From: Spirochaetae bacterium HGW-Spirochaetae-1
Lineage (GTDB): Bacteria > Spirochaetota > UBA4802 > UBA5550
Reading direction: 5' to 3'
NCBI GenBank assembly: GCA_002839375.1
Contig: PGXY01000003.1
Coordinates: forward strand, 95,863-159,862
Length of the DNA stretch: 64,000 nucleotides
Each line of letters opens with the position of its first letter. Positions within the stretch are counted from its first letter, which is position 1. A program made the translations under genes and the position numbers. The notes below the pieces were generated by a model. It had not been told where the DNA came from, made no database searches, and saw only the letters and a list, made by a program, of their open reading frames with translations. Below are positions 28,768-44,236 of this stretch, one piece after another.

Positions 28768-29385
28768 TTAATTCTTCTTATATTTAAACCTGAGATTATA
28801 CAGGCATTGATAAGGGTTTTCAACATTGCCCAGATTACAAATCCACGAGGGGAGTTTACCTGCAGGATCACCTTTACTCGTATATATAACCCGCGTCTTG
28901 TTTTTATCAGCCTCGCTACTTTTAAGAATCCATGAGAATGTTACATTTGTCATACGTATGCAGTCTGTTTTCGGATAGCCGTCAATCCCGGTATTAGTAC
29001 TTTCGTATATTCCTTTTTCCAGATCCACTTTATCCGACATTTGAATATACATATCCCGGTCTTCAGCAGGCCATGGCAGATCAATCTTCATATAAATAAT
29101 TTTTGAATCGGGAGAAAGCTCTTTGACTATTTCGGCCTTCAGCAATCTGTACATCCATTTCTTATAGCGAGGCACATCCTTCAATATTTTTACCGCTTCG
29201 GGCAGGGGGATATCAATAGTCGTTTCAGCCTTAAACTCCTCAACGGCATAGCCATCCGCTTTCCTGGTTGCCACCTTAATCCCCTTTTCATTTTTTTTCA
29301 CTTCCCATGCGGCATGGGGAGAAAGTGAAACAGGCAAAAATAATCCAGCCAATAATAGAAATAACAGATTTCTTTTAAAATTCAT
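28768..29385 (-). CDS. Exported START-like lipid-binding domain protein
   Basis: 205 residues from ATG 29385, with AGGTG about 7 nt upstream; the longer frame to 29475 is unlikely. Signal peptide MNFKRNLLFLLLAGLFLPVS, cleaved near SPHAA. The rest resembles a START/polyketide-cyclase fold (IKVATRKADGY, VEEFKAETTIDIPLPEAVKIL, DVPRYKKWMYRL, DLPWPAEDRDMYI). START domains bind sterols, phospholipids or other hydrophobic ligands. Last gene of the electron-transfer run, 169 bp after the ferredoxin gene, so its tie to the operon is less sure. Confidence 0.75.
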   Translation of the reverse strand: MNFKRNLLFLLLAGLFLPVSLSPHAAWEVKKNEKGIKVATRKADGYAVEEFKAETTIDIPLPEAVKILKDVPRYKKWMYRLLKAEIVKELSPDSKIIYMKIDLPWPAEDRDMYIQMSDKVDLEKGIYESTNTGIDGYPKTDCIRMTNVTFSWILKSSEADKNKTRVIYTSKGDPAGKLPSWICNLGNVENPYQCLYNLRFKYKKN

Positions 29386-29554
29386 CTCTCCCCACCTGCT
29401 GCTTATACTCTGTAAACAATTATCGCCGTGGCAAGATCTCCCTTGCATGAACTTTAATGAGCTTTCTCCCGACAATGGAGACCATTTTTAAATAAAACCG
29501 CGACACATTTCCTGTTCACCGCCGATCGGACATACATGAAAACTGCCGGCCGTA

Positions 29555-29836
29555 TCATCCGTATTTAATAATGATACCGGAGCCGCCCTTCGGATAGTTG
29601 AAATCAATGGCATCATGATTGCATACGGCATAACATGCCGCACACTCCAGGCAAAGTTCGCGATATTTTGGCGACAACCTGGTTTTATTGTTTTTCGGAA
29701 CAGCCCAGAGATTTGCCATGCACACTGAATTACACATACCGCATCCATCGCATTTCTCTTCATTAAATTTTATAAACTCCCCAGTATCGACGTTTTTAGC
29801 CCTGTGCACATAATCCTGTATTACGAAACCATCCAT
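29555..29836 (-). CDS. FixX-like 2[4Fe-4S] ferredoxin
   Basis: 93 residues with two complete cluster motifs: Cys29/32/35/39 (CDGCGMCNSVC) and Cys62/65/68/72 (CLECAACYAVC). The ending HDAIDFNYPKGGSGI is typical of FixX-type ferredoxins that dock with FixC. It starts 16 bp after the FixC-like gene. In ETF:quinone oxidoreductases of animals the FeS domain is fused; here it is separate. Likely carries electrons within the FixC-FixX pair. Confidence 0.92.
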   Translation of the reverse strand: MDGFVIQDYVHRAKNVDTGEFIKFNEEKCDGCGMCNSVCMANLWAVPKNNKTRLSPKYRELCLECAACYAVCNHDAIDFNYPKGGSGIIIKYG

Positions 29837-29852
29837 AGTATTTCCTCCCTGA

Positions 29853-31322
29853 TCAATTGGAAAGCCTGCCCTGAAGGGACACTTTATTTTTCCCGTATTG
29901 TTTCATAAATATTTTCTTGATGAGGCTCTGCGGCAGCACCTTTATCTTTGATGCAATTGAGGGAACAATCATATCGGCGATTTTTTCCATGTTCTCCCTG
30001 CTTATTCCTCTTCCCATGGGAGCGAGGTACTTACTTCCAAATTCTTTTATCTCCGGATCGGCGAGAACATCGAGTAAATATCCCAGGTGCTCATTGAAGG
30101 TGGTCATGTGATCGTCGCTCCAGTCAAAAACCAGGCTCGGCCCGTTAAAGGCCTGCAATTGTCCAAGCAGAACGACAATCTTTTTCATAAACTCGGGATT
30201 GAACGCACTGTTGCGCCAGAAATTGACGTACTCGTGGCCATACTCGAATTCCTTTCCTACGGGTGACTCCTTCCACATTTTTTCATAGACCGAAAGCGAC
30301 TTTTCCGAAACATCTCCTTTGCCTATGGCATTGGCAGCCGTTTCGATGGCCAGCTGTGCAGTCCAGCAGGCATGCCAGACTCCTTCCCCCTCGAGAGGAC
30401 AGGGGAACCCTCCGGCATCGCCTATGAGCAGTACACCGTTTCCATAGGTCTTGCTGCCAGGTTCAGGCATCCATGGAAGCAGGTGTATCTGAAATTCGCG
30501 TATCTTCGCGTCGATAGATCGGCACATGGACTGAAACAGGGGTATTTTCATAACCTGCTTCAAAAGATCTACGGGCTTTCCGTCCCAGACATCGAGCCAC
30601 TGACCCGCGCCAAGATGGAATCCATCCCTGAAGTTTACCTGGTACGCGCCGCAGTACGGTCCAAACCATACCCATTCCGCGTTGCCGATAACATCATCCA
30701 TTTTTGATTCATTACAGGAAAAATCAATCTGCGGGACCAGCGTAACCTCGTTTTTCTTCCACCGTTTCCGTATTCCCGATTTAATGGCGACAGCCGAATG
30801 GGCGCCGTCAGCCCCTATCACCACATCGGCCTTGATCCGTTCCCCGCTGTCGGTTATCACACCCTTGACCCTTCCGTCCTCCTGGATAAGATCCTTTATG
30901 AGCGTCGATGTGCGCAGCTCGGCGCCGGCGGAACAGGCCGTATCGGCGAGCAGTTTGTCAAGATCACTTCGGTATATGCTGGCACCAGTCCATCCCCGAT
31001 TCTGTCCCTTGTACATGATCCTCTTCTCCGGGAGAGAATTTCTCCCCGTCTGGATGGTGGTGATATGCCGATCGTCAACATCGGTTATAATGAAGGAACA
31101 GCGATTGATCTCACGGTAGGACGGCAGCTGCGTGATCTTCTCCATCATTTCGGGAAAATCTCTCCACCACCGCTGCCCCAGCCCGCACCCTGAAGCATTC
31201 TTATTGCCGGGTACTTCCGCTCTTTCAAAAAATATCGTTTTCAATCCTTTCTCCGCGGCTGTTTTCGCGGCATATGATCCCCCCGGGCCCCCACCTACAA
31301 TAGCAACATCAAATTTTTCCAT
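29853..31322 (-). CDS. FixC-like ETF:quinone oxidoreductase (FAD)
   Basis: 489 residues. N-terminal FAD-binding VAIVGGGPGGSYAA, a second FAD motif VVIGADGAHSAVA, and GVLLIGDAGGFPCPLEGEG match the FixC/geranylgeranyl reductase group. The membrane-binding and quinone region is expected in the middle but cannot be proven by eye. It should take electrons from EtfAB and, with the ferredoxin encoded next, reduce membrane quinone. The 84 bp gap to etfB and 16 bp to the ferredoxin fit one operon. Confidence 0.88.
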   Translation of the reverse strand: MEKFDVAIVGGGPGGSYAAKTAAEKGLKTIFFERAEVPGNKNASGCGLGQRWWRDFPEMMEKITQLPSYREINRCSFIITDVDDRHITTIQTGRNSLPEKRIMYKGQNRGWTGASIYRSDLDKLLADTACSAGAELRTSTLIKDLIQEDGRVKGVITDSGERIKADVVIGADGAHSAVAIKSGIRKRWKKNEVTLVPQIDFSCNESKMDDVIGNAEWVWFGPYCGAYQVNFRDGFHLGAGQWLDVWDGKPVDLLKQVMKIPLFQSMCRSIDAKIREFQIHLLPWMPEPGSKTYGNGVLLIGDAGGFPCPLEGEGVWHACWTAQLAIETAANAIGKGDVSEKSLSVYEKMWKESPVGKEFEYGHEYVNFWRNSAFNPEFMKKIVVLLGQLQAFNGPSLVFDWSDDHMTTFNEHLGYLLDVLADPEIKEFGSKYLAPMGRGISRENMEKIADMIVPSIASKIKVLPQSLIKKIFMKQYGKNKVSLQGRLSN

Positions 31323-31406
31323 TGTTTTTATCCCTACCTAATTTTTTGAACTGTTGCGTGCATCCTTACAGGATCAAAGAATGCTGTTTATTTCCCAATC
31401 ATTTAT

Positions 31407-32207
31407 TCATAAAACACTATCGGCTCTCAATCTCTCGGCAAGTTTTTTCCCTGCTTCCTCGAACGTGGTACCGGCAATAATAGTACAATTTCTTTTTTTG
31501 ACATCAGGGGCGTATAGTTTTTTAATAACAACTTTATTGCCTCCACTGACGCTATAGTTGATCTTTGCCGCATTGAGGGCGGTGTTCGGTTTGTTTTTCG
31601 CCTCCCTCCTCTGTATGACCGTGGGATATCTCAGCTGGCCGATTTCATTGCTTACCATTACGACAGCCGGTAACGGTGATTTAAGAACCTCGTATCCCCC
31701 GGGTATGAGCCTTTCCACATAGAGTTCATTGTCCCGTTTCGAAATTTTCCTGGCCATGGTGATAACGGGTATTCCCAGCATCATTGCAACACCGATCCCG
31801 GTCTGACCGGCGTTCCAATCCGCAGCCTGTCGGCCCACAAGTATCAGGTCATAACGACCTATTGTCTTAATTGCACAGGAGAGGGCCTCGGACGTGCGGA
31901 AGCTATCGAGATTCGCGGAATCCAGATCTTCGTCTTCAACTTTGACAAGCTCATCTGCCCCAACCGCCAATGACTTCAACATCACCGCGTCGGATATTTT
32001 TCTTCCCATGGTAAGAACGGTAACCGTACACTCACCTTTCATTTCATCTTTCATTCTCAGGGCCGCTTCAAGGGCATTTTCGTCGAAAATACTGAGCACC
32101 GGCGGTATGCCCCGGGGCTCGACCCTCTTTAATATGGGATCGACGACAAAGGATGACGGGGGACCTTCCGGGTCCGGAACCTGTTTAATGCAGACAATTA
32201 TCCTCAT
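31407..32207 (-). CDS. etfB: Electron transfer flavoprotein beta subunit
   Basis: 266 residues from ATG 32207 (GAGG 9 nt upstream). The start MRIIVCIKQVPDPEG and later LVGRQAADWNAGQTGIGVA are EtfB hallmarks. It pairs with EtfA, encoded 11 bp upstream, to carry electrons from a dehydrogenase. Whether this is a bifurcating or a simple ETF cannot be decided from these motifs alone. Confidence 0.93.
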   Translation of the reverse strand: MRIIVCIKQVPDPEGPPSSFVVDPILKRVEPRGIPPVLSIFDENALEAALRMKDEMKGECTVTVLTMGRKISDAVMLKSLAVGADELVKVEDEDLDSANLDSFRTSEALSCAIKTIGRYDLILVGRQAADWNAGQTGIGVAMMLGIPVITMARKISKRDNELYVERLIPGGYEVLKSPLPAVVMVSNEIGQLRYPTVIQRREAKNKPNTALNAAKINYSVSGGNKVVIKKLYAPDVKKRNCTIIAGTTFEEAGKKLAERLRADSVL

Positions 32208-32218
32208 AAGCGCCATCC

Positions 32219-33211
32219 TCATACACACTCTGCCACGAGAGCGTTACTGAACGAGGGGATGATCTCCTCGTAATTCCCCACGATACCATAATCGGCTATA
32301 TCGAAAATCGGGGCCTGTGCGTCTTTGTTAATAGCGATAATGGTTCGGGAGGTATACATACCCACGATGTGCTGTGTGGATCCCGATATTCCCACGGCGA
32401 TATAAACCGAGGGCCCGACGATTTCTCCGGTTTGCCCCACCTGCGCCTTCGCATTGATCCATCCCAGGTCGCAGGGCGGCCTGCTTGCTCCCAGGGCCGC
32501 TCCCAGGGTCTTCGCCAGTTCAGCAAGAAGGCCGAACCCCTCCTTGCTTCCGATACCGCGTCCCCCGGCCACAATGATATCCGCATCGTCCAGCTGGGGG
32601 CCTTCCTCAAGTTCCAGTACCCGCTCCATCACCCGGACAGTTACATCTTTTTCATCGATCATTTCCGCTATGGGTATTATCTTTCCATTATACGCATCGC
32701 AACGCTGTGCCTTTTCCTGCGTCTTCGCTCTGACGGTTATAACAGCCGGTTTCGATTCGATATTGTACTCGGCAATAACATTGCCGCTATAGACCGGTTT
32801 CGATAAAACAACACGGCCCTCCTCAATCCACATCGCGACGCAATCCGTCACCAGTCCGGTATCGAGACTGAAGGAAACACGCGGCGCGAGATCAAGCCCC
32901 GGCAATGTATTGCCAAAAAGAACGGCCCGCGGTTCTATCTTCCGGCAGAGCCTTGCCATGACACCGCAATACAGCTCGGGATGAAATTCCTTTAAACCCG
33001 GTGAATCGGCCACGTAAACATGATCAACGGAATAATTAATGAGTTCATTGACAGGGCCGCTCATATTTTCGCCGATTATAACGGCTCCCAGACCGCATCC
33101 CCAGTCATCGGCGAGCCTTCTTCCTGCGCCGAGGCACTCCAGGGTCAGCCGGTCAATTTCCTTTTTTTCATTATATTCGGCATAGACAATGATATCATTC
33201 CTGCTGTCCAT
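32219..33211 (-). CDS. etfA: Electron transfer flavoprotein alpha subunit
   Basis: 330 residues from ATG 33211, with GAGGAGG 5 nt upstream; the frame is open further up but overlaps the oxidase gene. C-terminal FAD-binding region is clear: AGGRGIGSKEGFGLL, ASRPPCDLGW, QVGQTGEIVGPSVYIAVGISG and QHIVGM. Forms the ETF heterodimer with EtfB. It starts 10 bp after the large FAD oxidase gene, its likely electron donor. Confidence 0.94.
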   Translation of the reverse strand: MDSRNDIIVYAEYNEKKEIDRLTLECLGAGRRLADDWGCGLGAVIIGENMSGPVNELINYSVDHVYVADSPGLKEFHPELYCGVMARLCRKIEPRAVLFGNTLPGLDLAPRVSFSLDTGLVTDCVAMWIEEGRVVLSKPVYSGNVIAEYNIESKPAVITVRAKTQEKAQRCDAYNGKIIPIAEMIDEKDVTVRVMERVLELEEGPQLDDADIIVAGGRGIGSKEGFGLLAELAKTLGAALGASRPPCDLGWINAKAQVGQTGEIVGPSVYIAVGISGSTQHIVGMYTSRTIIAINKDAQAPIFDIADYGIVGNYEEIIPSFSNALVAECV

Positions 33212-33221
33212 GACGGCCTCC

Positions 33222-34871
33222 TCATTTCTCACTGAATCCCTCAAAGACATCCTCCATGACGGGCGGGACGTAATCCTCCATGTCCTTTTGCAGCTCATCA
33301 AAAGGCGGAATGTAGTGCGACCCGTCTGAAACATTGTTGGGATCAAAGGCCTGCTTTACCTTTGACTGCCAGAGATGATAATCATTCATCATAGGGCCGA
33401 GCCATTTATACATTTTATGCTCCATGGACGACAGTCCGAATCCCAGTGTCTCCTTGATCGTAGCGTGTGTCGTGGCAAAGAGAAATTCAATTCTATTCTT
33501 CTCCGTTTGGGGTTGTCGGCGATCGAACATGGCTATCTCTTCCAGGTGGCCCCAGTTGCTCGTTCCTTCATATATGCCGCCCCAGGTGCAATCGGCCATA
33601 TCGTCGATAAATGTTCCGTTGGCGATATATTTCTCTTTTATCCGCTCGCCTATTTTAGCCTGTTTGACGCAGCACGCATACATCTCGCTGCTTCCCATAC
33701 TGGTGATAAAAGCGCCGCCGGGCCGGAATGCCATGGCTGGATAAATGGACCGGTGCAATCCCCACCAGAAGTTTGAGTGAAATGGCAGATGACTCGTATC
33801 AATCATGATGCTGTCGTTTTCCCCGACGATATCTTTGATCACCTTTTCCTGGTATTGGGCCTCCCCCTCGCTCTGGGCAGCGATGGCAAAAAGTGTCATG
33901 AACTGAAAAGTCTTCATGATGGAACGCAGCCCCTGGGTATCCAGAAGAATTCGCATGGCCCGGGGTGCCAGCAATCCGAACAAGGCCCCGACGGAACCCT
34001 TGCAGTGAATGTAGCCGATCTCGGAATCCCCGATAGCATATGCCACATTCGTAAATGCGTCATAACTGGGAGAAAATATAAAAAAGACCTTGTGCGTTTT
34101 CGGCAATTCAAATTCCGGAATTATATCGCTGAGTACTCCTTTGAAACGCGGCTCCCGCGGACCATCGGGCCATGAGTAAAGTTTTACCGCGCACTTTGTA
34201 AATACGCCCAGACCGCCGGTTGTTCCACCCCATCCGCGCATGATACCACGCAGACTCGGTCCAGGCCCGTCGCCACAAAACCACCCCGCGCCAGATCCGG
34301 GTGTTCCGATATGCAACATTTCTCCGTCGGGAAGCACCCACTCGACGCCCAGGGGATTCCTGCCGCCAAACCCCGTATAGAGACCGGTCCAGCCGTATCC
34401 CCAGGCTGACGTGACGCTGGCCAGCTGGGACGTGTTGGGCCCGGCGCCGATAATATGGCAATTAAGACCGCGCTTCATGGCTTCGGCCTGCAGCTGCGAG
34501 CAGCAGACGTAAGGCTCGATAACTGCAAACATATTCTTCTCATCGATCTCTATGATCCTGTTCATCCGCCTCAGATCGATCTGCACCACTCCCTCTTCAC
34601 CGGGACCGCCCCATGCAGCCCATCCCGTTGAATGGGCCTTGAATTTTATTCCATGCTTATTGCAGGTCCTGACAATATGCTGAACCTCTTCGGATGTTTT
34701 TGGAAGCACCACTGCCGCGGGTCTCGGTATCCAGGCTTCGGTGTTAAGATTAATCGCCGGCTGCCACGCGTATGAATCCAGCAGGGCCGGTTCCCGGGAA
34801 ATATTCTCTTTCCCCAGGACTTCTTCCATCTCACGGTACGCCTGATCGGAAATTATTTTACATTCCAGCAT
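33222..34871 (-). CDS. FAD-linked (PCMH/GlcD-type) oxidoreductase, large form
   Basis: 549 residues with an N-terminal FAD_binding_4 domain (IPRPAAVVLPKTSEEVQHIV, FKAHSTGWAAWGGPGEEGVV) and a glycine-rich stretch GIMRGWGGTTGGLGVFTKC. The C-terminal substrate cap (SNFWWGLHRSIYPAMAFRPG, FLFATTHATIKETLGFG) is long and unlike a standard glycolate or lactate oxidase. It oxidises an unknown substrate, probably a hydroxy acid or phenol-like compound, and hands electrons to the FeS protein or ETF encoded beside it. Confidence 0.85.
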   Translation of the reverse strand: MLECKIISDQAYREMEEVLGKENISREPALLDSYAWQPAINLNTEAWIPRPAAVVLPKTSEEVQHIVRTCNKHGIKFKAHSTGWAAWGGPGEEGVVQIDLRRMNRIIEIDEKNMFAVIEPYVCCSQLQAEAMKRGLNCHIIGAGPNTSQLASVTSAWGYGWTGLYTGFGGRNPLGVEWVLPDGEMLHIGTPGSGAGWFCGDGPGPSLRGIMRGWGGTTGGLGVFTKCAVKLYSWPDGPREPRFKGVLSDIIPEFELPKTHKVFFIFSPSYDAFTNVAYAIGDSEIGYIHCKGSVGALFGLLAPRAMRILLDTQGLRSIMKTFQFMTLFAIAAQSEGEAQYQEKVIKDIVGENDSIMIDTSHLPFHSNFWWGLHRSIYPAMAFRPGGAFITSMGSSEMYACCVKQAKIGERIKEKYIANGTFIDDMADCTWGGIYEGTSNWGHLEEIAMFDRRQPQTEKNRIEFLFATTHATIKETLGFGLSSMEHKMYKWLGPMMNDYHLWQSKVKQAFDPNNVSDGSHYIPPFDELQKDMEDYVPPVMEDVFEGFSEK

Positions 34872-34872
34872 G

Positions 34873-36138
34873 TCATAACTCTCCTAACGATTGAGCTAAA
34901 AGGTCGCATACGTCATAAACAAGAATATCACTGTTGCTTTCCGCGGCCGCGTCTTTGAAAAGACGCTCGCACCAGGGACAGGCCGTCACCAGGGCTTCCG
35001 CACCTGTTGCCAAGGCTTCCGCAAGTCTGTCGTTGGCCGTCCATCGCGCGAAATCGGGATCGAATTCATAGACGCCGCCACCCGAACCGCAGCACCAGCT
35101 GTACTCGCGGATACGTTCCATCTCTACCAGGTCCACTCCCGGTATCGATTTCAATATATCCCGGGGCGGGTCGAAAATACCATATTTACCGCTTTGCTTA
35201 TATTTCACGGGCCGCATCAGTTTATCATCACCATGCCATTCTTTATAAATTTCTCCGCGACGCCCAAGATGACAGGGATCATGATAGGTCACCCTCATGG
35301 GAACCTTCTTCCCGGGGCGTATATCGCCTTTCTTTATCAGGGAATCTATATATTCCGTTATATGGAGAACCTCAACCCCGAGTTTTCTCCCATTTTTAGG
35401 ATAGAGATATTTAAACGTATAATAACAATCAGAACATGGCGTCACCAGTATTTTCGCTCCTGAGGCCTTCACCCTGCTTGCCATATCCTCACTGTAATTT
35501 TTCATCTCCCCCTGGTATCCAATTTCATAGGCCCTGCCGCCGCAGCATGACTCATCACGGCCCGCTATGCCCACCTTAATCCCGTTCTGCAGAAGAAGGC
35601 TGATGGAAAACCGCAGGGTGTCCCGGAGATCTTCATCATAGGAATACCTGCATCCGGCGTGGAACAGAACATCCACTTTCTGCTTATTGATATCGGGAAT
35701 ATCAAGTCCCTCAGCCCAGTTTCCCCTGTCGGACTTGAGCATATTCATGGTGTTGTCTTCCCGCTTCATGCTTTCAATGATATCAAGATGTTCCGCCTGC
35801 ACATACCCTCCTTCAACGCAGTGAGAGCGCATCTCAAGAAGGACATCGGAAAGATCAATATCATCACGATAGGCCTGGCAGGAAACCTGGCATGCACCGC
35901 ATAACTGGCAGCGGTATACTATCTCCGACAGCGCATCGGTCATATCGGTCCTATTCTCCAATAACGAATTTGCCATGATCATTTTTCCGCCGCCGGAATA
36001 AGCATGAAAATTGTACCGGTCGACAGAAGGACAGACCTTTGCGAATCGCCAGCTCTTTATCTGCAGATGGGGAACCCATTTACAGTTGGAACACCGTGAA
36101 CAACCTTCCATATCTCTTTTCAATTCCTGCAAACTCAT
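34873..36138 (-). CDS. GlcF/HdrD-like CCG-domain iron-sulfur protein
   Basis: 421 residues from ATG 36138 (AGGTG 5-6 nt upstream); ATG 36153, overlapping the preceding stop, is the alternative. N-terminal cysteines Cys13/16/19/36 and Cys77/80/83/87 (CQLCGACQVSC) suit two [4Fe-4S] clusters. Two CCG domains follow (DESCCGG near 200; SWCCGSGG near 360), as in heterodisulfide reductase D and glycolate oxidase GlcF. It should wire the FAD oxidases to ETF or to quinone. It lies between two FAD oxidase genes, the arrangement of a GlcDEF-like complex. Confidence 0.88.
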   Translation of the reverse strand: MSLQELKRDMEGCSRCSNCKWVPHLQIKSWRFAKVCPSVDRYNFHAYSGGGKMIMANSLLENRTDMTDALSEIVYRCQLCGACQVSCQAYRDDIDLSDVLLEMRSHCVEGGYVQAEHLDIIESMKREDNTMNMLKSDRGNWAEGLDIPDINKQKVDVLFHAGCRYSYDEDLRDTLRFSISLLLQNGIKVGIAGRDESCCGGRAYEIGYQGEMKNYSEDMASRVKASGAKILVTPCSDCYYTFKYLYPKNGRKLGVEVLHITEYIDSLIKKGDIRPGKKVPMRVTYHDPCHLGRRGEIYKEWHGDDKLMRPVKYKQSGKYGIFDPPRDILKSIPGVDLVEMERIREYSWCCGSGGGVYEFDPDFARWTANDRLAEALATGAEALVTACPWCERLFKDAAAESNSDILVYDVCDLLAQSLGEL

Positions 36139-36149
36139 AATAACACCTG

Positions 36150-37619
36150 TCATTTAGTTTTTTGATTGTTATTGAAACACAATTTACCGGGATTCATGAC
36201 TCCTTTCGGATCAAGAATGCTCTTCACCTTTAATAAAGCAGCCACGGTATCGGCGCACCGATCGTAAACCATATGAGCGGTCTTCCCGTAGGGCCGTGAG
36301 AAAAATCCACCCATCTCCATGATCTTTTTCGTAACACCTGTACAGAATGCCTGCACTCTCTCGGACTCATTTTTATCACTGGCATCATACATGACAGAAA
36401 ATTCAAAATGACATACCCTTCCCTGTTGTACGGGCTGGAGATACACGCCAAGCTTTTCGCCGTCGATTCCATGTGTTTTCATCTCACGATTGATTTCATT
36501 GATAAATTCTGGAGACTTGTCCAGGGTCCCGAGGAATATGATGTCTTCAAAGGAACCTGTCTTCCTCAGTTTCCAGTATGGATCGGCGCTTGACCGGCGA
36601 ATAAGCTTAAGGACCTCATCGGCGTTCACCGGGCCGGTATTAGCTGAAGGCTTTACATTCATTTTCAGAGCCAGATCGGCGATGTCCTTTTCGATATAAC
36701 TAATCCGTTCTTCGGGGAAACGTTCATAACCAGAAATCGTGTAGAACAATATCCATCGGGGAATCTCGCCTTCCGATGCATGATTCACAATAGAAGAAAA
36801 ATTTACATTATTGAGAATAAAACAATGATCGGCATAGCGTTTCCCCGTCAGAGCATAGGTAATATCGACGAGATCATTCAGATTGGAGGCGCTCATAACA
36901 AAGGCTTTTTCAACCCGCGGCATGAGTTCCAGTTTTATGGAGGCCCAGGTAACAATCCCCATAGTTCCCTGAGCTCCTTGAATTATTTTTGCCCAGTCGG
37001 TCTGGGATGGTCCCATGGGACTTTTCTGGGCCTGTCCCGACGCCCATTGCGCCTCGAGACTTCCCGGCCCTGCGGCTGAACCGGTCCGGAAGAGATCCCC
37101 CGAGCCGAATATTACCTCAATGCAGCAGAGGGGATCCTGCATGTCCCAGTGATATTTCGGCAGTGTTGTCGGTTCCCGTTCGAGGAGGCTCCCGACCACC
37201 GACTTCGTTTGTCTCGGAAGAAGAGGCGCCGAGACCCGAAGCCCGCTGGCCCCTGCCGCGTCAATGAGTTCATCGAAAGTGACCCCGGGCTCTACAAGGG
37301 CCGTCTTGCTTCTCCTGTCGATTCGCACGATGGACTTCATATCGCTCATATCAACAATGACCGCCCCCTTTCGTTCCGGCACAGTATCACCCCGGAAACG
37401 CGGCCCGCGGGAGGAAACGGGCACCAGGGGAAATCCCTCCCGGTTGGCCAGCTTTACTATTTCTCTGATCTGTTCCGCTGTCCGGGGTTTCACTACGCGT
37501 GATGGATTTTCGCCGAGAGAAAAGCCGTTGTCACGGGAATAACTTTCGCAGATATCATTATTGCCAATGACGTTTTTATCTCCGACAATAGTTGTTAATA
37601 GATTATCCTGGGTTATCAT
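36150..37619 (-). CDS. FAD-linked GlcD-type oxidase
   Basis: 489 residues, GlcD/vanillyl-alcohol oxidase superfamily. FAD domain: SRVVKPRTAEQIREIVKLAN, PLVPVSSRGPRF, GAVIVDMSDMKSIVRID, ALVEPGVTFDELIDA. A family-typical end is SILDPKGVMNPGKLCF. It overlaps the small upstream gene by 4 bp and the next gene begins at or near its stop, so the subunits are probably made in fixed ratio. Likely the catalytic or second flavin subunit of a three-part dehydrogenase with its neighbours. Confidence 0.88.
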   Translation of the reverse strand: MITQDNLLTTIVGDKNVIGNNDICESYSRDNGFSLGENPSRVVKPRTAEQIREIVKLANREGFPLVPVSSRGPRFRGDTVPERKGAVIVDMSDMKSIVRIDRRSKTALVEPGVTFDELIDAAGASGLRVSAPLLPRQTKSVVGSLLEREPTTLPKYHWDMQDPLCCIEVIFGSGDLFRTGSAAGPGSLEAQWASGQAQKSPMGPSQTDWAKIIQGAQGTMGIVTWASIKLELMPRVEKAFVMSASNLNDLVDITYALTGKRYADHCFILNNVNFSSIVNHASEGEIPRWILFYTISGYERFPEERISYIEKDIADLALKMNVKPSANTGPVNADEVLKLIRRSSADPYWKLRKTGSFEDIIFLGTLDKSPEFINEINREMKTHGIDGEKLGVYLQPVQQGRVCHFEFSVMYDASDKNESERVQAFCTGVTKKIMEMGGFFSRPYGKTAHMVYDRCADTVAALLKVKSILDPKGVMNPGKLCFNNNQKTK

Positions 37620-38143
37620 GAGATTATATCTCCCTTGGCTTTTAGTATTTTTTTCTTCATCCGCCGAAGCACAAGTCGGGTGGTCCAGGAGGGTTTTTGA
37701 GCAATGGCATAATCGATAATGACCGGAGCCATAAATACGGTCAATGGCTTGAGTGAGGACGCAAATCGCATCGCAATGTTTGCCTTTTCCATCACCTTGC
37801 CGAGATCATACCCGGCTTCCCTGACGGACTTCTCCAGGACGGGCTGAAAGATATCTAAAAGAAGGCCGACACCACGGATAAAATTTTCATCGGAAAAAAA
37901 CTGAAGTAACGGCAGGGCCTTGTCCCGAACAGCGACATCTATGTTCGTGCGATCAGCCACACTGAGATTGTCTTCCATCGACCCCAGAACGAGGCTTAAA
38001 TCAATGTGGGGGTCCAGTATGCCCTGGAGAACCTGAAGATTTTTTTCCAGTAAACCGTTTTTGTAGGCGAGAAATAAAAAGTTCCATACTATCAACGCAT
38101 TCTGATCCATAACCATATCCTTAATATTAAAATTAGAGGACAT
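37616..38143 (-). CDS. Helical protein of unknown function, first gene of the ETF operon
   Basis: 175 residues from ATG 38143 (a TTG at 38158 is the alternative). No signal peptide, no Cys clusters. Predicted mostly helical, with hydrophobic stretches (LIVWNFLFLAY, PLTVFMAPVIIDYAIAQ) and a basic tail (RLVLRRMKKKILKAK), so it may sit at the membrane surface. I do not recognise it; DUF1641-like proteins of redox operons are a loose comparison only. Overlaps the FAD oxidase gene by 4 bp. Confidence 0.65.
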   Translation of the reverse strand: MSSNFNIKDMVMDQNALIVWNFLFLAYKNGLLEKNLQVLQGILDPHIDLSLVLGSMEDNLSVADRTNIDVAVRDKALPLLQFFSDENFIRGVGLLLDIFQPVLEKSVREAGYDLGKVMEKANIAMRFASSLKPLTVFMAPVIIDYAIAQKPSWTTRLVLRRMKKKILKAKGDIIS

Positions 38144-38593
38144 CTCAACATCATCCAATGCCGGCCGGATGAGTATTATGTCAGAGTCTTCTGCCGTATG
38201 TCGTACGAACCGCTTTAGTTTTTAGTAAATAATTACCGCAAGAAATATATCTACAGGATTGTATTCATCGCCAGGGTCAATGGGTTCTTTTTAAGAATCC
38301 AGCAACAATAAACACGGATAATAATTATACATACCGTCATTTTATTATCGTAATTAATTATTATATAAGCGCATTATGCCGACATTGTCAAGGATTTATC
38401 CCATAAAAAATGAATTTATTCTATTTTTATACAATTTTTGCTCTTTTTAAGTCATTTTAGCATAATTATTCATTATACATACCGTCACTCAAAAGAGACA
38501 AGATGGTAAAACTTGATTATCAATCACCGGAAAAGACAAGGAAGGGAAAAATGTTAAAAAGACGGGGGAGTAATCACAGCAGAAAGAGAATGC
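38144..38593. other. AT-rich regulatory region upstream of the ETF operon
   Basis: About 450 bp without a credible gene. It holds the operon promoter and two 16-bp direct repeats, described separately, and otherwise AT-rich DNA. Confidence 0.6.
38324..38487 (-). promoter_or_regulatory. Promoter flanked by two identical 16-bp sites
   Basis: ATTATACATACCGTCA occurs exactly at 38324-38339 and 38472-38487, 148 bp apart (about 14 helical turns). Between them TTGACA (38391-38386) and TATATA (38367-38362) make an 18-bp-spaced promoter reading into the operon. Read on the minus strand each copy ends in TATAAT, so the copies could be duplicated -10 regions instead of protein sites. A looping repressor such as the tandem TetR protein encoded next door is an attractive but unproven reading. 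Confidence 0.45.
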
Positions 38594-39853
38594 TTATTTT
38601 TCCTGTGTATTCATATAGTTAAGAAGACTGTGCAGGAAAATACCAAGGTTCTCGGCAAGAATTTCCCGGGAACAATGTATAAATCCACCAAAAAACATGA
38701 ATATTGAATAACTGATCGTGGTAATAATAATTTCCGCGGCAATCAACGAATCCAGCTCCTGGCAGGCACCGTCATCCTGCAATTCCTTGATTTTAACCTG
38801 GATGGGCTTGCTGAATTGAATAAACATCTGTCCGTAAAAACCGCCAAGTTTTTCACTGTAAAAAGCGCCCTGCAGAAGGGTCCAGTTAAAAGATGAATAC
38901 TTATCAAAAAGGTTTATCACAATAGAACTGATTCGGATCAATTCATCCAGGGAAGTCGCATCCAGACTAGAAACCATGAGATCGATCACACTGGTCTGAT
39001 CCCGGTTTTGATAAAACATATCAAGCATGATGGCCTGGATTAAATCATCTTTATCGTTAAAATGCTGATAGAAGGTACCCCTGCTATAACCTGCCTTTTG
39101 TGCAATATCCAGTATTTTGGTATCAAAATAACCATGCTGCGAAAATTCTTCTTTCGCCACATCGAGAAGTTTCTTCTTCGTTAAAAGAGCCGCTTTCCTG
39201 TTTTCGGATTTCTTTTTCCTTACTTTTGTTAATTTCTCATCATAATTAAGAACAGAATAGAGTATAATGGAAATATGCCGTGCGAGAACATCAGGATCGC
39301 ATCGTATGATTCCGAGTGAGAAAATAAAAATCGATAGAAAAAACAATATCGACATTATCTGGGAGAATATCAGGGCATCAATGCGGGAATCCACTCCTTT
39401 AATCTGTTTCTGCTTTATCCTTGCTGAAAAAATATTTCCGATATCCGATGATATTCCGGCAAACAGGTCAAATGTCTCTTTATTCTGAACCATCCCCTGA
39501 ACAAAGGTTTTAAACAAACCCGATGATTCAAGCATAACGGAAACAATAAGCCTTATATCCCGTTCAAAGGCCGGGTAATCTTCCGGATTCAAAAACCCCG
39601 CATCATCATTCTTATCACGCACAATCGAGGAGAGTGTTTCTGCAATCCGGTCTATAAGATAGGCCAGTATATTCTGCTTATTTTTAAAATACAAATAGAA
39701 AGCACCGTGACTTACCCCGGCCCTTTTAGTAATGGAGTCAACACTCGTATTGAAATATCCGTTTTGATTAAATTCCGCAGCAGCCGCGTCAAGCAGTACG
39801 TCTTTCATCAGGGCTGGAGGCTGTGCCTGCAAGGATTTTTTCTTCATTTTCAT
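38594..39853 (-). CDS. Tandem TetR regulator: two complete TetR modules in one chain
   Basis: 419 residues, twice the usual TetR length. Module 1 has a helix-turn-helix at residues 20-59 (LLDAAAAEFNQNGYFNT, ITKRAGVSHGAFYLYF). Module 2 repeats it at 229-268 (LLDVAKEEFSQHGYFDT, IAQKAGYSRGTFYQHF), an offset of 209. The module ends also match (DVLARHISIILYSVLNY against EILAENLGIFLHSLLNY), so the whole gene was duplicated in tandem and fused through a basic linker (KVRKKKSENRK). One chain could mimic a dimer. It lies directly upstream of the ETF operon on the same strand and is its likely regulator (inference). Confidence 0.92.
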   Translation of the reverse strand: MKMKKKSLQAQPPALMKDVLLDAAAAEFNQNGYFNTSVDSITKRAGVSHGAFYLYFKNKQNILAYLIDRIAETLSSIVRDKNDDAGFLNPEDYPAFERDIRLIVSVMLESSGLFKTFVQGMVQNKETFDLFAGISSDIGNIFSARIKQKQIKGVDSRIDALIFSQIMSILFFLSIFIFSLGIIRCDPDVLARHISIILYSVLNYDEKLTKVRKKKSENRKAALLTKKKLLDVAKEEFSQHGYFDTKILDIAQKAGYSRGTFYQHFNDKDDLIQAIMLDMFYQNRDQTSVIDLMVSSLDATSLDELIRISSIVINLFDKYSSFNWTLLQGAFYSEKLGGFYGQMFIQFSKPIQVKIKELQDDGACQELDSLIAAEIIITTISYSIFMFFGGFIHCSREILAENLGIFLHSLLNYMNTQEK

Positions 39854-39890: not shown

Positions 39891-40253
39891 ACGAATAAGC
39901 ATAGCACGAGGATATTTCCGCATTGAAATTAAATGACATAATGTTCAATATTGCGAAGATCCTATTATTAATTTTTATATACGTTATGTGCTTATATATA
40001 CTTTTATTGGCTGTCTTTTCAATTTTTTTTACATTTTATGCTCTTTGTTGAGAATTATGCTTGCATTATTACTGATGGCATGTACAATAAACTAGCATAG
40101 ATTCCGATAATTCTCCAGGCAATTTTATATTATATATTCATTGAATTGCACTCTAAAGCCTTCTTGTTCCTGAACTAATCATAATTAACAAAAAGTGTAA
40201 ATCACATAGAGGGGTAATTTTTCCAAAAAATTTTTAACACTTTAATAACGCTT

Positions 40254-40265
40254 CCGACCGGTCGG
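40254..40265 (+). promoter_or_regulatory. TetR-type operator palindrome CCGACCGGTCGG
   Basis: A perfect 12-bp palindrome in otherwise AT-rich DNA, just downstream of a TTTAATAA -10-like sequence and 57 bp before the lipoprotein ATG. GACCGGTC cores are common in TetR-family sites. The tandem TetR protein encoded divergently is the nearest candidate. Confidence 0.5.
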
Positions 40266-40321: not shown

Positions 40322-43300
40322 ATGAAGTTTCTTTATTACAAAATCTCATATTTCACAATCCTATTTTTATGTCTGATTTTCTTTTCATGTTCCGGAACCG
40401 ACCTCGGATCATTTCAGAAAAACAATCCGGACCCGCCTTATGATCTCTTGCATATATTTGACAATTACCCTGCCATAAATGAAGCCATTTACAATTTAGA
40501 CTCCGTCCCTGCCAATAAAAAGCTCGGCGATTTCATCCAGAACGGAACGGAACTCGATTTGTTCTGTATTAATATCAGCAGCATCTTAAGCGATCAGTCC
40601 GTATCTTTTACCGAAGAAATAGCAAAAATTCTCGGCATGATAATCGAAAAAGATATCTGCTATTACAACAATCCTTCCGACCTGGGATTTTACGCAAACA
40701 GCGACATCGAACACGAAAAGAATTTTTATCGTGCCATAGATGTAATTTTGGATAATAGCGATATTAGTCATGACGCATTGGAAATTATCGAACAGGTATT
40801 GAAATATAACAGGGAGAAGAACCCCGGCGACATAGAACAATCGATTGAAGATTTCATTGAGGATATATCCGATCCTGATTTCAAAAATGATTTCATAGAT
40901 TTCAGTACAGAACTGAGCAAATTCCTGATCACCAATGACTATCCCATCTGGCTTGATACGGAAGGCAACGTTATAACCAGCCGAAAATCAATTGACCCGG
41001 TTAATCATACGAATACCGATATGGGCAATTTAGTCAAAGGCACCATTAAAGTTTTTACCGGTCTGTATGGACTCGCATCAAATGATCAAACGTTACGGGA
41101 AACTATTTATGATATAATTCGCGAAGATGTTAAATCATTAATAAAGCCTGATGTGATAACCCAGGTCGCTAAAAATACCGTTTATAATCTGGCATATTAT
41201 TTTTCAGCGGACGGAGATGGGTACAATACAAGCGATTATTACTGCGACAGTGGCGGCATGTATGTCAACGCCGAGCTTAAAGAGACGATCAGGGAAATGT
41301 TTCCCTCATTGGTCAAACTCTTTATCCGCACCGACGACACGGCATCGGCAGTTCCCGATTATTCCATTGCCTATAATGCAACCGGTCAATCTCCCCTCGA
41401 GGCCTTTACCTGTTCTCTTGATAAATTAAATCAGGCGGGGATTGATTATTCACGAATCGAATTAGAACCTTCACTGCGCAGGATGATCGACTATAACGCA
41501 TGGGGAAAAAGGAGAACTGATTACGGAACAACAAGGCTATCATATTTTGACCACTTTTTATATTCAATCTCAACAGCATATAAGTTCGGTTTTCTTTCAC
41601 GCAAAAGCAGTGATGGCGAGCCTTCTGTAAACTCCAATCATGGACACGGTATTTCCACAAACGGCATACTGACGATCAACGATATCATTTACTCCCTGGA
41701 TATGCCGTCGAATGCTTTATGCCCGGGTCTGAATTTATATGATATGGCGCTCGACGATAGAATCGGCCAGGCGGAAAATATATCCAGAAGTTCAAAAATC
41801 TTTTCGCATTCGGCAATGGCACAGCATAAGTTTTACATGGGAGCCGATTACCCGATAGCGCTTCTGGTTCCATCACTCTGCGCCGGAGACGCCGGACTTC
41901 CCAATGGTGGCGAAACATCCATAACACCGACGTCAAACACAACGACCATTTCAACAAAAGACAATATCTCAAACAATGATTTCCGGACCTACTTCCCCAA
42001 AGTTGCCGACGGCCTCGGAGCGGTAAATACCGCCGAATTTCTTCTCTCATTAATTCCCCGTGCCTGCTGGGATGGCGAAGGACCGTTTTACCATGCGCCT
42101 GACAGCACAGGCACAACTTCTTTCAACTGGCCCGGTAAAGGATTACGTACTGTCAAAATATATTACAAACCGAATAAAGAAATATACGCGTATGTATACA
42201 AGCCCTCATCGAATGCGGAAACATGGGAATATTACTATCCCGTATCGGGTAACGATATCAGCGATGATACGGGCCAGCGTTCAAACAGATACAGGGATAA
42301 GATTGAATCGGATTACTACCTGGTCAAATATAAACAGTTGGGAACAACATATTATGCCGCACCTCCGGTTAATCCCGATGGATCCTGTCTCGTCAAATCC
42401 GGCAACAAGTTCATATTAAAAGGACAAACAAGCTGCAATGCTTCAAATTTTATTCTGGAAGAAAAAATAAAGCAGAATAATCCAATAAGGGAATGCAAAT
42501 CCCAGGAAGAGGCAATATTCCGCAATTACCAGTGGCTCTGTTTTGACAAAAAATTGACTTTCATCATTCCGCTCTATATCAATATGTCGTCAGTAATACA
42601 AATTGCAGGATTCATGTTTACCGAGGGAAACGGCTTTTTGGGTCTTGTTAATTCCCGCAAAGGCCCGAAAAACGCATACTGGCTTTCCAATGAATCGGAT
42701 TTTCCAATCGCTAAATATTCAAATTCAAATATCGGAATCGGCAACATTCCCACGGGAAACAACCCCGATTATATGGAATCGCATATACCCGGCGACGGCA
42801 GATTGATTCTCCTGCTCACACAGGAAAATCCGTATGGCGGAATATTCACCCCCGATTTAATGTTTGATAATCTGATAGGAAAGGGATTCGCATTCCCTGG
42901 CGCAATTGCCTGCAGCATACCGACGGTACTTCGTCTCGCCTTTCTTCAGGAAGAAATGGTGGAAGCTGATTCTTCCGATATAGGCAATTTATCAAGCCCG
43001 ACATGGGACAATAGAAACAGGCTACTCCCCATCATTGTCGCGTTAACCGGAACTCTTCGTGACATGAGTCAATACAATGTACCAGCATCGGGCTATAATT
43101 ACAATTACTCTAAAAAACACAAACTGCCCATATCGGAATTGCTGGAGGGAATAATCTTTCCTTTGACAAAACCTCATCTGCGCTACATGGAAGACCTGGA
43201 ACATTCTCCCGGAGATGACGCCTATTGGGGCAAACGCTGGATTCAGCGAGTGGAGGACGAAAGCCTTGGCGTTTTCTCCTATTTCACTCCCAATATAGTA

Positions 43301-44236
43301 GAGAAAACGAGTGCGGATTTTTTTCTGCCCAATAACAATCTTCGGAGCATACTGAGCGTCCTTTCGGGAAATACTACTTCGGGTTCTGATGGATTGATCC
43401 CCCTTATCACCGATGAAACGAACCTTCTGTCCCGGATCATTTCCATCCTGCAGAAATGCGGAAATTCTCAGATGACTGCCGCACGGAAAAATTTATTCCT
43501 GGGTCTTGAACAATGTATGACATCGATTGGAACCACAAAAAGTGAAATATCGGAGAAAAACCTCTCCCTTATCGACTCCACTCCATATACATGGATGTTC
43601 ACGCCTCGGGAAGAAGACCTCTTGCTTGATGACATCCTGGAGTATGATGGACCAATATTTTCCGATGATCAGCGGTGGGAAGATTTTGATTCATCAATTG
43701 AGACGCTGCATGAGTTTCTTAATGGTGAAAAAGATATTACCGCCAACATTATCAACATCATGGAAGCAGTGCTGGGCAATCAATTATCCGAATCAGAGAT
43801 TGAAGGCGTTATGTATACAATAGGAAAATTGTTCGGGCGATATACCGGCAATGAATGGCAGTTTCACGGAGAAAATTCTGATTACGATGCGATGTACAAA
43901 TTGATATCTTTTCTACCGGTGATTCATGAGATATTAAGAGACACGGACAGCGGCAAAAATTATGTCAACCTCATTGATAATATGCTCCTGCTCCTTGAAA
44001 ACGATTCGAGCCTTTTGCATTACGCGGTAAAGAGTATGCATACCAGCTACTCCAGTGAACAGATATTTAAGGACCTGTATGATTTTTCAACCTGCGAAAT
44101 AACTCATGGAGAAAACGCCCTTCTCTGGCGGGATATGTCCGATTTATTATATGATCTGTCTGATATCGTAAAGAATCCCCCGACATCCGAGGATTTATCT
44201 GCGCTGTATAAACGCTACGGTTTTCAGAGAAACTGA
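40322..44236 (+). CDS. Very large lipoprotein of unknown function (1304 residues)
   Basis: The start at 40322 follows AGGAGG at a 6-nt distance. Lipoprotein signal: KISYFTILFLCLIFFSC, Cys near residue 23. No recognisable domain. Residues ~30-330 are rich in helical, Asn/Asp/Ile-containing segments; the middle has Tyr- and Pro-rich beta-like stretches (KIYYKPNKEIYAYVYKP) and several spaced Cys; the end is helical again. Codon use is AT-rich compared with genes outside 38-44 kb. A TetR-type palindrome in its promoter region suggests regulated expression. It is probably anchored to a membrane and may serve the neighbouring oxidation system, but nothing in the protein proves this. Confidence 0.8.
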   Translation: MKFLYYKISYFTILFLCLIFFSCSGTDLGSFQKNNPDPPYDLLHIFDNYPAINEAIYNLDSVPANKKLGDFIQNGTELDLFCINISSILSDQSVSFTEEIAKILGMIIEKDICYYNNPSDLGFYANSDIEHEKNFYRAIDVILDNSDISHDALEIIEQVLKYNREKNPGDIEQSIEDFIEDISDPDFKNDFIDFSTELSKFLITNDYPIWLDTEGNVITSRKSIDPVNHTNTDMGNLVKGTIKVFTGLYGLASNDQTLRETIYDIIREDVKSLIKPDVITQVAKNTVYNLAYYFSADGDGYNTSDYYCDSGGMYVNAELKETIREMFPSLVKLFIRTDDTASAVPDYSIAYNATGQSPLEAFTCSLDKLNQAGIDYSRIELEPSLRRMIDYNAWGKRRTDYGTTRLSYFDHFLYSISTAYKFGFLSRKSSDGEPSVNSNHGHGISTNGILTINDIIYSLDMPSNALCPGLNLYDMALDDRIGQAENISRSSKIFSHSAMAQHKFYMGADYPIALLVPSLCAGDAGLPNGGETSITPTSNTTTISTKDNISNNDFRTYFPKVADGLGAVNTAEFLLSLIPRACWDGEGPFYHAPDSTGTTSFNWPGKGLRTVKIYYKPNKEIYAYVYKPSSNAETWEYYYPVSGNDISDDTGQRSNRYRDKIESDYYLVKYKQLGTTYYAAPPVNPDGSCLVKSGNKFILKGQTSCNASNFILEEKIKQNNPIRECKSQEEAIFRNYQWLCFDKKLTFIIPLYINMSSVIQIAGFMFTEGNGFLGLVNSRKGPKNAYWLSNESDFPIAKYSNSNIGIGNIPTGNNPDYMESHIPGDGRLILLLTQENPYGGIFTPDLMFDNLIGKGFAFPGAIACSIPTVLRLAFLQEEMVEADSSDIGNLSSPTWDNRNRLLPIIVALTGTLRDMSQYNVPASGYNYNYSKKHKLPISELLEGIIFPLTKPHLRYMEDLEHSPGDDAYWGKRWIQRVEDESLGVFSYFTPNIVEKTSADFFLPNNNLRSILSVLSGNTTSGSDGLIPLITDETNLLSRIISILQKCGNSQMTAARKNLFLGLEQCMTSIGTTKSEISEKNLSLIDSTPYTWMFTPREEDLLLDDILEYDGPIFSDDQRWEDFDSSIETLHEFLNGEKDITANIINIMEAVLGNQLSESEIEGVMYTIGKLFGRYTGNEWQFHGENSDYDAMYKLISFLPVIHEILRDTDSGKNYVNLIDNMLLLLENDSSLLHYAVKSMHTSYSSEQIFKDLYDFSTCEITHGENALLWRDMSDLLYDLSDIVKNPPTSEDLSALYKRYGFQRN

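Follow-up and report, generated by a model that had tools for sequence, protein, structure and literature searches.

Repressors that carry two TetR modules in one polypeptide are rare, and only Mce3R (Rv1963c) of Mycobacterium tuberculosis has been studied structurally. In its solved DNA complex (PDB 9b7y), a single chain forms an M1-M2 pseudo-dimer through a four-helix bundle and sits on a non-palindromic operator, and M1 alone is inactive (PMC11667970). The Mce3R operators are 25 bp long and occur in two copies 53 bp apart, for which looping has been suggested (PMC11667970). A further 204 double TetRs have been predicted in actinomycetes (quoted in PMC11667970). The layout has also been engineered: single-chain Tet transregulators, in which two TetR modules are linked head to tail and fold intramolecularly, are functional (PMC1797012).

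Here we describe tetR2, a double TetR repressor gene of Spirochaetae bacterium HGW-Spirochaetae-1 that lies in a stretch of 64,000 nucleotides (hereafter the window; contig PGXY01000003.1, positions 95,863 to 159,862). Because of the Mce3R precedent, which was missing from the preliminary description of this DNA, the double-TetR architecture has to be regarded as already known; what is new is a separate case of it together with a candidate regulon. Like Mce3R, the tetR2 product holds two TetR modules in a chain of about 400 residues with a similar offset between the helix-turn-helix domains (HTHs; 36-55 and 240-259 in Mce3R), and its candidate operators are non-palindromic and present in two copies per control region. 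The setting also recalls Mce3R, which is autoregulated, divergent from its target operon and directed at lipid-related genes. In contrast to Mce3R, whose two modules fall into different TetR subgroups (PMC11667970), the two tetR2 halves are sisters. The tetR2 motifs are 16 bp long and 139-151 bp apart, unlike the 25-bp operators of Mce3R with their 53-bp separation, and the putative target is a flavin/Fe-S/ETF operon rather than a yrbE/mce lipid-transport operon. No Mce or YrbE match was found among the tetR2 neighbours searched.

At the sequence level, the tetR2 product matched Mce3R in the HTH only (37 bits), whereas FadR-type proteins reached 43 bits and several single-domain TetRs also scored higher. 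Since the similarity is no higher than that to ordinary TetRs, tetR2 is probably not an Mce3R ortholog. The 204 actinomycete proteins, which we could set against tetR2 by description only, have the same two-module layout, but tetR2 comes from two genera of another lineage. The engineered single-chain Tet proteins share the head-to-tail two-module chain; unlike tetR2, they were built artificially from identical or near-identical halves joined by a designed linker, and their site is the symmetric tetO.

Two TetR modules of common origin

The tetR2 open reading frame spans exactly 38594-39853 on the minus strand, starts with ATG and encodes 419 aa whose halves are homologous end to end. Searched as one chain, the product matched Pfam TetR_N (PF00440) at residues 20-65 and again at 229-275 (2e-32), so the offset of 209 residues between two HTHs given in the preliminary description is right; both C-terminal ends quoted there as matching are indeed present in the protein. 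When the halves were searched separately, each exceeded the curated TetR_N cut-off of 24 bits on its own (3e-15 and 8e-16; 56.0 and 58.1 bits). Genome-wide there are 65 TetR_N matches, and tetR2 is the sole frame with two of them. Module M1 (residues 1-211; 39221..39853, minus strand), delimited by Pfam, predicted helices and a match to EthR, comprises the HTH (about 15-64), helices a4-a7 (65-158) and helices a8-a9 (159-205). Module M2 (residues 212-419; 38597..39220, minus strand) is delimited by Pfam, a predicted HTH with pLDDT above 90 and a match to TtgR/DesT, with the HTH at about 226-275 and a8-a9 at 367-414. This confirms the observation of two full-length TetR modules in one tetR2 chain.

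Structure prediction with AlphaFold2 was performed on a 43-row alignment and gave a mean pLDDT of 75.5 and a pTM of 0.47; single-domain rows aligned to M2 only, and the M1 model thus rests on few rows. A run with a two-row alignment reached a pLDDT of 47 and was discarded. Each module was modelled with nine helices, M2 mostly above 80 pLDDT and both HTHs mostly at 83-96, and in both the HTH is followed by an all-helical a4-a9 ligand/dimerisation domain. M1 (13-205) superposed on EthR (Z 20.7, rmsd 2.2, 188 aligned), and M2 (215-419) on TtgR (Z 15.7, rmsd 3.1, 190 aligned) and, likewise with Z 15.7, on DesT. The concern that module 2 might not be a TetR is thereby answered, as the prediction for M2, of good confidence, is a complete nine-helix TetR fold. 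In a Foldseek search with the whole chain, Mce3R (9b7y) ranked first (E 1.4e-6), yet with a TM of 0.33 and an rmsd of 25 A, so the model does not reproduce its inter-module placement; the two proteins superpose module by module only, and inter-module packing in the model is of low confidence. Mce3R was absent from the 50 rows listed in the structural comparison by module, which carries no weight, since those rows are single-domain chains.

The relationship between the halves extends well beyond the HTH. Residues 4-205 of M1 and 213-414 of M2 aligned with 60/206 identities (29%) and a score of 232 (best of 1,000 shuffles, 58), and the parts after the HTH scored 121 by themselves (best of 2,000 shuffles, 60). 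The HTHs of the halves are 46% identical and helices a8-a9 40%, against 16% for a4-a7; in sequence, then, the DNA-binding and dimerisation surfaces have remained similar, and it is the ligand core that has diverged. A profile built from the halves gave 327-355 bits for all four of them in the two genomes that carry the gene, compared with 73 bits for the best single-domain TetR there. Orthologs aside, M1 and M2 are mutual best full-length matches, and in a tree of 41 sequences, which leaves out Mce3R and has long internal branches, the halves group together, apart from 37 single-domain TetRs, at a support of 97/96. The end-to-end alignment, together with this clade apart from single TetRs, supports for the sequences sampled the earlier proposal that one gene was duplicated as a whole in tandem, as opposed to a fusion of unrelated TetRs.

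An apparent fusion of this kind could also result if two neighbouring tetR genes had been joined by a frameshift or in assembly. Nothing was found in favour of this, and another genus of the same family (genome G003) holds an intact, syntenic tetR2 ortholog in one open frame, with 69% identity over the whole chain, which rules out such an artefact to the point where its chance is negligible. Purifying selection also runs across the linker, which is 70% conserved between the two proteins (dN 0.19, dS saturated). A locus in the source genome (L002) was considered as a broken double tetR and rejected, its read-through similarity being spurious intergenic matching.

Full-length relatives of tetR2, counted as genomes with the same fusion, occurred in 2/393 genomes sampled from the phylum, namely the source genome and G003. 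Neither the double TetR nor the FAD oxidase of the neighbouring operon brought up a relative in genome-contig scans, and tblastn of plasmids gave partial, single-domain matches with no full double TetR. The gene and a close version of that operon were present together in the same 2/59 genomes. tetR2 is a separate double-TetR case that probably arose independently. Elsewhere in the source genome, we also observed an adjacent pair of genes that each join a MerR helix-turn-helix to a TetR module (L005 554-2313; C6, about 318.2-319.9 kb); their products are 280 and 305 aa, and the genes are separated by a few bases.

The neighbouring operon and candidate operators

Downstream of tetR2 in the window, and on the same strand, lies its predicted target operon (28768..38158, minus strand), a designation based on gene families and on the gene order kept beside tetR2 in G003. 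The operon encodes a 180-aa protein, an FAD oxidase, a CCG Fe-S protein, a second FAD oxidase, EtfA, EtfB, a GGR/FixC-like flavoprotein, a 4Fe-4S ferredoxin (29555-29836) and a START-domain protein. Its FAD oxidases are GlcD-like, and its substrate could be a lipid. On the other side of tetR2, and divergent from it in both genomes, is a giant lipoprotein gene that is likely co-regulated (40322..44236, plus strand; listed ORF from 40283). The lipoprotein-like product (1317 aa) carries a Cys-lipidation-like signal as judged by eye, and a Pfam search assigned it no family. It belongs to a large paralogous family with matches in 19/59 related genomes, often as tandem copies. In G003 the same operon adjoins tetR2 in inverted orientation, with the lipoprotein gene divergent as in the window.

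Distant paralogous FAD oxidase/CCG Fe-S/FAD oxidase modules in relatives have a single tetR alongside (L046, L048 and L049, with a weaker match at L047), so the module seems to be habitually TetR-controlled. These regulators stand beside the same three-gene oxidoreductase module as tetR2 does, but they have one domain, and they are not close relatives of either tetR2 half.

The control regions share a non-palindromic 16-bp motif, TGACGNNATGTAYAAY, with two same-orientation copies in each of the 4/4 regions, these being the operon promoter and the tetR2/lipoprotein intergenic region of the window genome and of G003, the two genomes that could be compared. In the operon promoter of the window, the candidate operators O1 (proximal; 38324..38339, minus strand) and O2 (distal; 38472..38487, minus strand, 148 bp from O1) form an exact 16-bp direct repeat of TGACGGTATGTATAAT, and a repeat of equal length arose in 1/2,000 shuffles. 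The orthologous promoter of G003 contains TGACGCCATGTATAAT and TGACGCCATGTACAAC. Each tetR2/lipoprotein intergenic region holds exactly two more matches to the consensus, at 1-2 mismatches: O3, TGACATAATGTTCAAT (39934..39949, plus strand; 2 mismatches), and O4, TGATGGCATGTACAAT (40073..40088, plus strand; 1 mismatch), 139 bp apart in the window, and copies at L032 19577 and 19728 in G003. At least two matches appeared in 1/1,500 shuffled intergenic regions for the window and in 0/1,500 for G003, and the random expectation for two matches in one divergent region is about 1e-4 each; these probabilities are indicative only, because the consensus was fixed after the operon copies had been seen and the mismatch limit was set after a first look.

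The spacings of the pairs are 148, 139, 139 and 151 bp, and every copy points away from tetR2. Across both 5 Mb genomes, the operon promoters are the only places with exact matches to the consensus, and each has two. The 12 other one-mismatch sites in the window's genome are all inside long open frames, as is one paired weak site, and we therefore do not claim further regulon members. Alignment of the eight copies revealed invariant TGA, TGT and AA blocks with unconserved flanks and without a central dyad. The repeated motif fits an asymmetric operator that would be read by unequal HTHs, and its occurrence in the four control regions outlines a candidate regulon; this candidate operator, which is well supported, is our main addition to what was described before.

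A perfect 12-bp palindrome, CCGACCGGTCGG (40254-40265), lies 57 bp upstream of the start codon of the lipoprotein gene (ATG at 40322). It has the shape typical of TetR-type operators and is the sole copy in the 5.2 Mb genome. It was our first operator candidate and was demoted because it is not conserved in G003; it looks like the operator of some other TetR-type regulator.

Proposed mode of action and its alternatives

The whole is best explained, with a probability of about two in three, by a self-duplicated single-chain TetR repressor whose paired modules would recognise an asymmetric operator and thereby control the operon, the lipoprotein gene and tetR2 itself. M1 and M2 most likely pair within the chain through their a8-a9 helices, an arrangement suggested by the Mce3R precedent and the conservation of these helices rather than by the model. 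One polypeptide would then offer two non-identical HTHs to one asymmetric operator, TGAC(G/A)NNATGTNYAAT, in which one HTH would read the TGAC block and the other, about one helical turn away, the TGTnYAA block. At two aligned positions that are base-contacting in TetR, the modules differ (H49 and L54 in M1, R258 and Q263 in M2), and each residue is kept in the ortholog. The preliminary proposal of a pseudo-dimer on asymmetric operators gains from the Mce3R precedent and the eight motif copies; the pairing itself is inferred, and the modelled inter-module geometry, of low confidence, is unlike that of Mce3R.

The same features could be read as a conventional homodimer in trans (M1-M1', M2-M2'), in which four HTHs bridge two palindromic or near-palindromic operators with one module type per motif. 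The a8-a9 helices are kept in both modules, the candidate operators are paired 139-151 bp apart, and one G003 intergenic copy, GACATcATGTC, is nearly palindromic, all of which would suit such a dimer. However, a central dyad is absent from 7/8 sites, and in Mce3R, for which alone a structure has been solved, M1 and M2 of one chain pair with each other, and M1 alone does not bind (PMC11667970), which makes pairing in trans rather unlikely. It is unlikely, too, and slightly more so, that the motif is a promoter element or the site of another regulator, with tetR2 acting elsewhere, for example at the CCGACCGGTCGG palindrome. O1 and O2 do overlap TATAAT, and a promoter-like TTGTCT-18-TATAAT match ends at O2, so part of the signal in the operon copies could be a promoter element; the palindrome, for its part, is unique and TetR-type in shape. 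Yet the invariant TGA, TGT and AA are unlike a -10 box, position 2 of the hexamer varies, and in neither genome does the exact motif occur outside these promoters. The palindrome lacks conservation in G003.

A role for one module as a fixed dimerisation partner only, its DNA or ligand binding having been lost, would agree with the ligand core being the part least similar between the halves (16%). Against it, both HTHs show conservation across the two genera (82% and 76%) and are confidently predicted (pLDDT mostly 83-96), and the Tyr and Lys that would contact the motif are kept in both. We consider such a loss improbable.

For the single-chain repressor, the two sites per control region, about 140-150 bp apart, would perhaps be held by a dimer of single-chain molecules. 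The flavin/iron-sulfur/ETF oxidoreductase operon, the divergent lipoprotein gene and tetR2 itself would be repressed, and release would follow from a small molecule binding the diverged a4-a7 core, probably a lipophilic substrate or product of the operon. An acyl or other lipophilic operon substrate as inducer is a guess from the enzymes and the START protein.

A broader evolutionary reading, which we put forward tentatively, is that a self-duplicated, single-chain TetR pseudo-dimer evolved independently in a lineage other than the actinomycetes, and that its promoters co-evolved, a palindromic operator giving way to paired asymmetric ones that the repressor bridges by DNA looping. If true, this would show symmetry breaking in a repressor and its operator in a natural case that can be dated. 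As a second and probably independent double TetR, with sister halves and eight conserved candidate operator copies, tetR2 would be a clean case for studying how homodimeric repressors and their palindromic operators become asymmetric, and it opens a specific protein to biochemical work in a bacterium that is not a pathogen.
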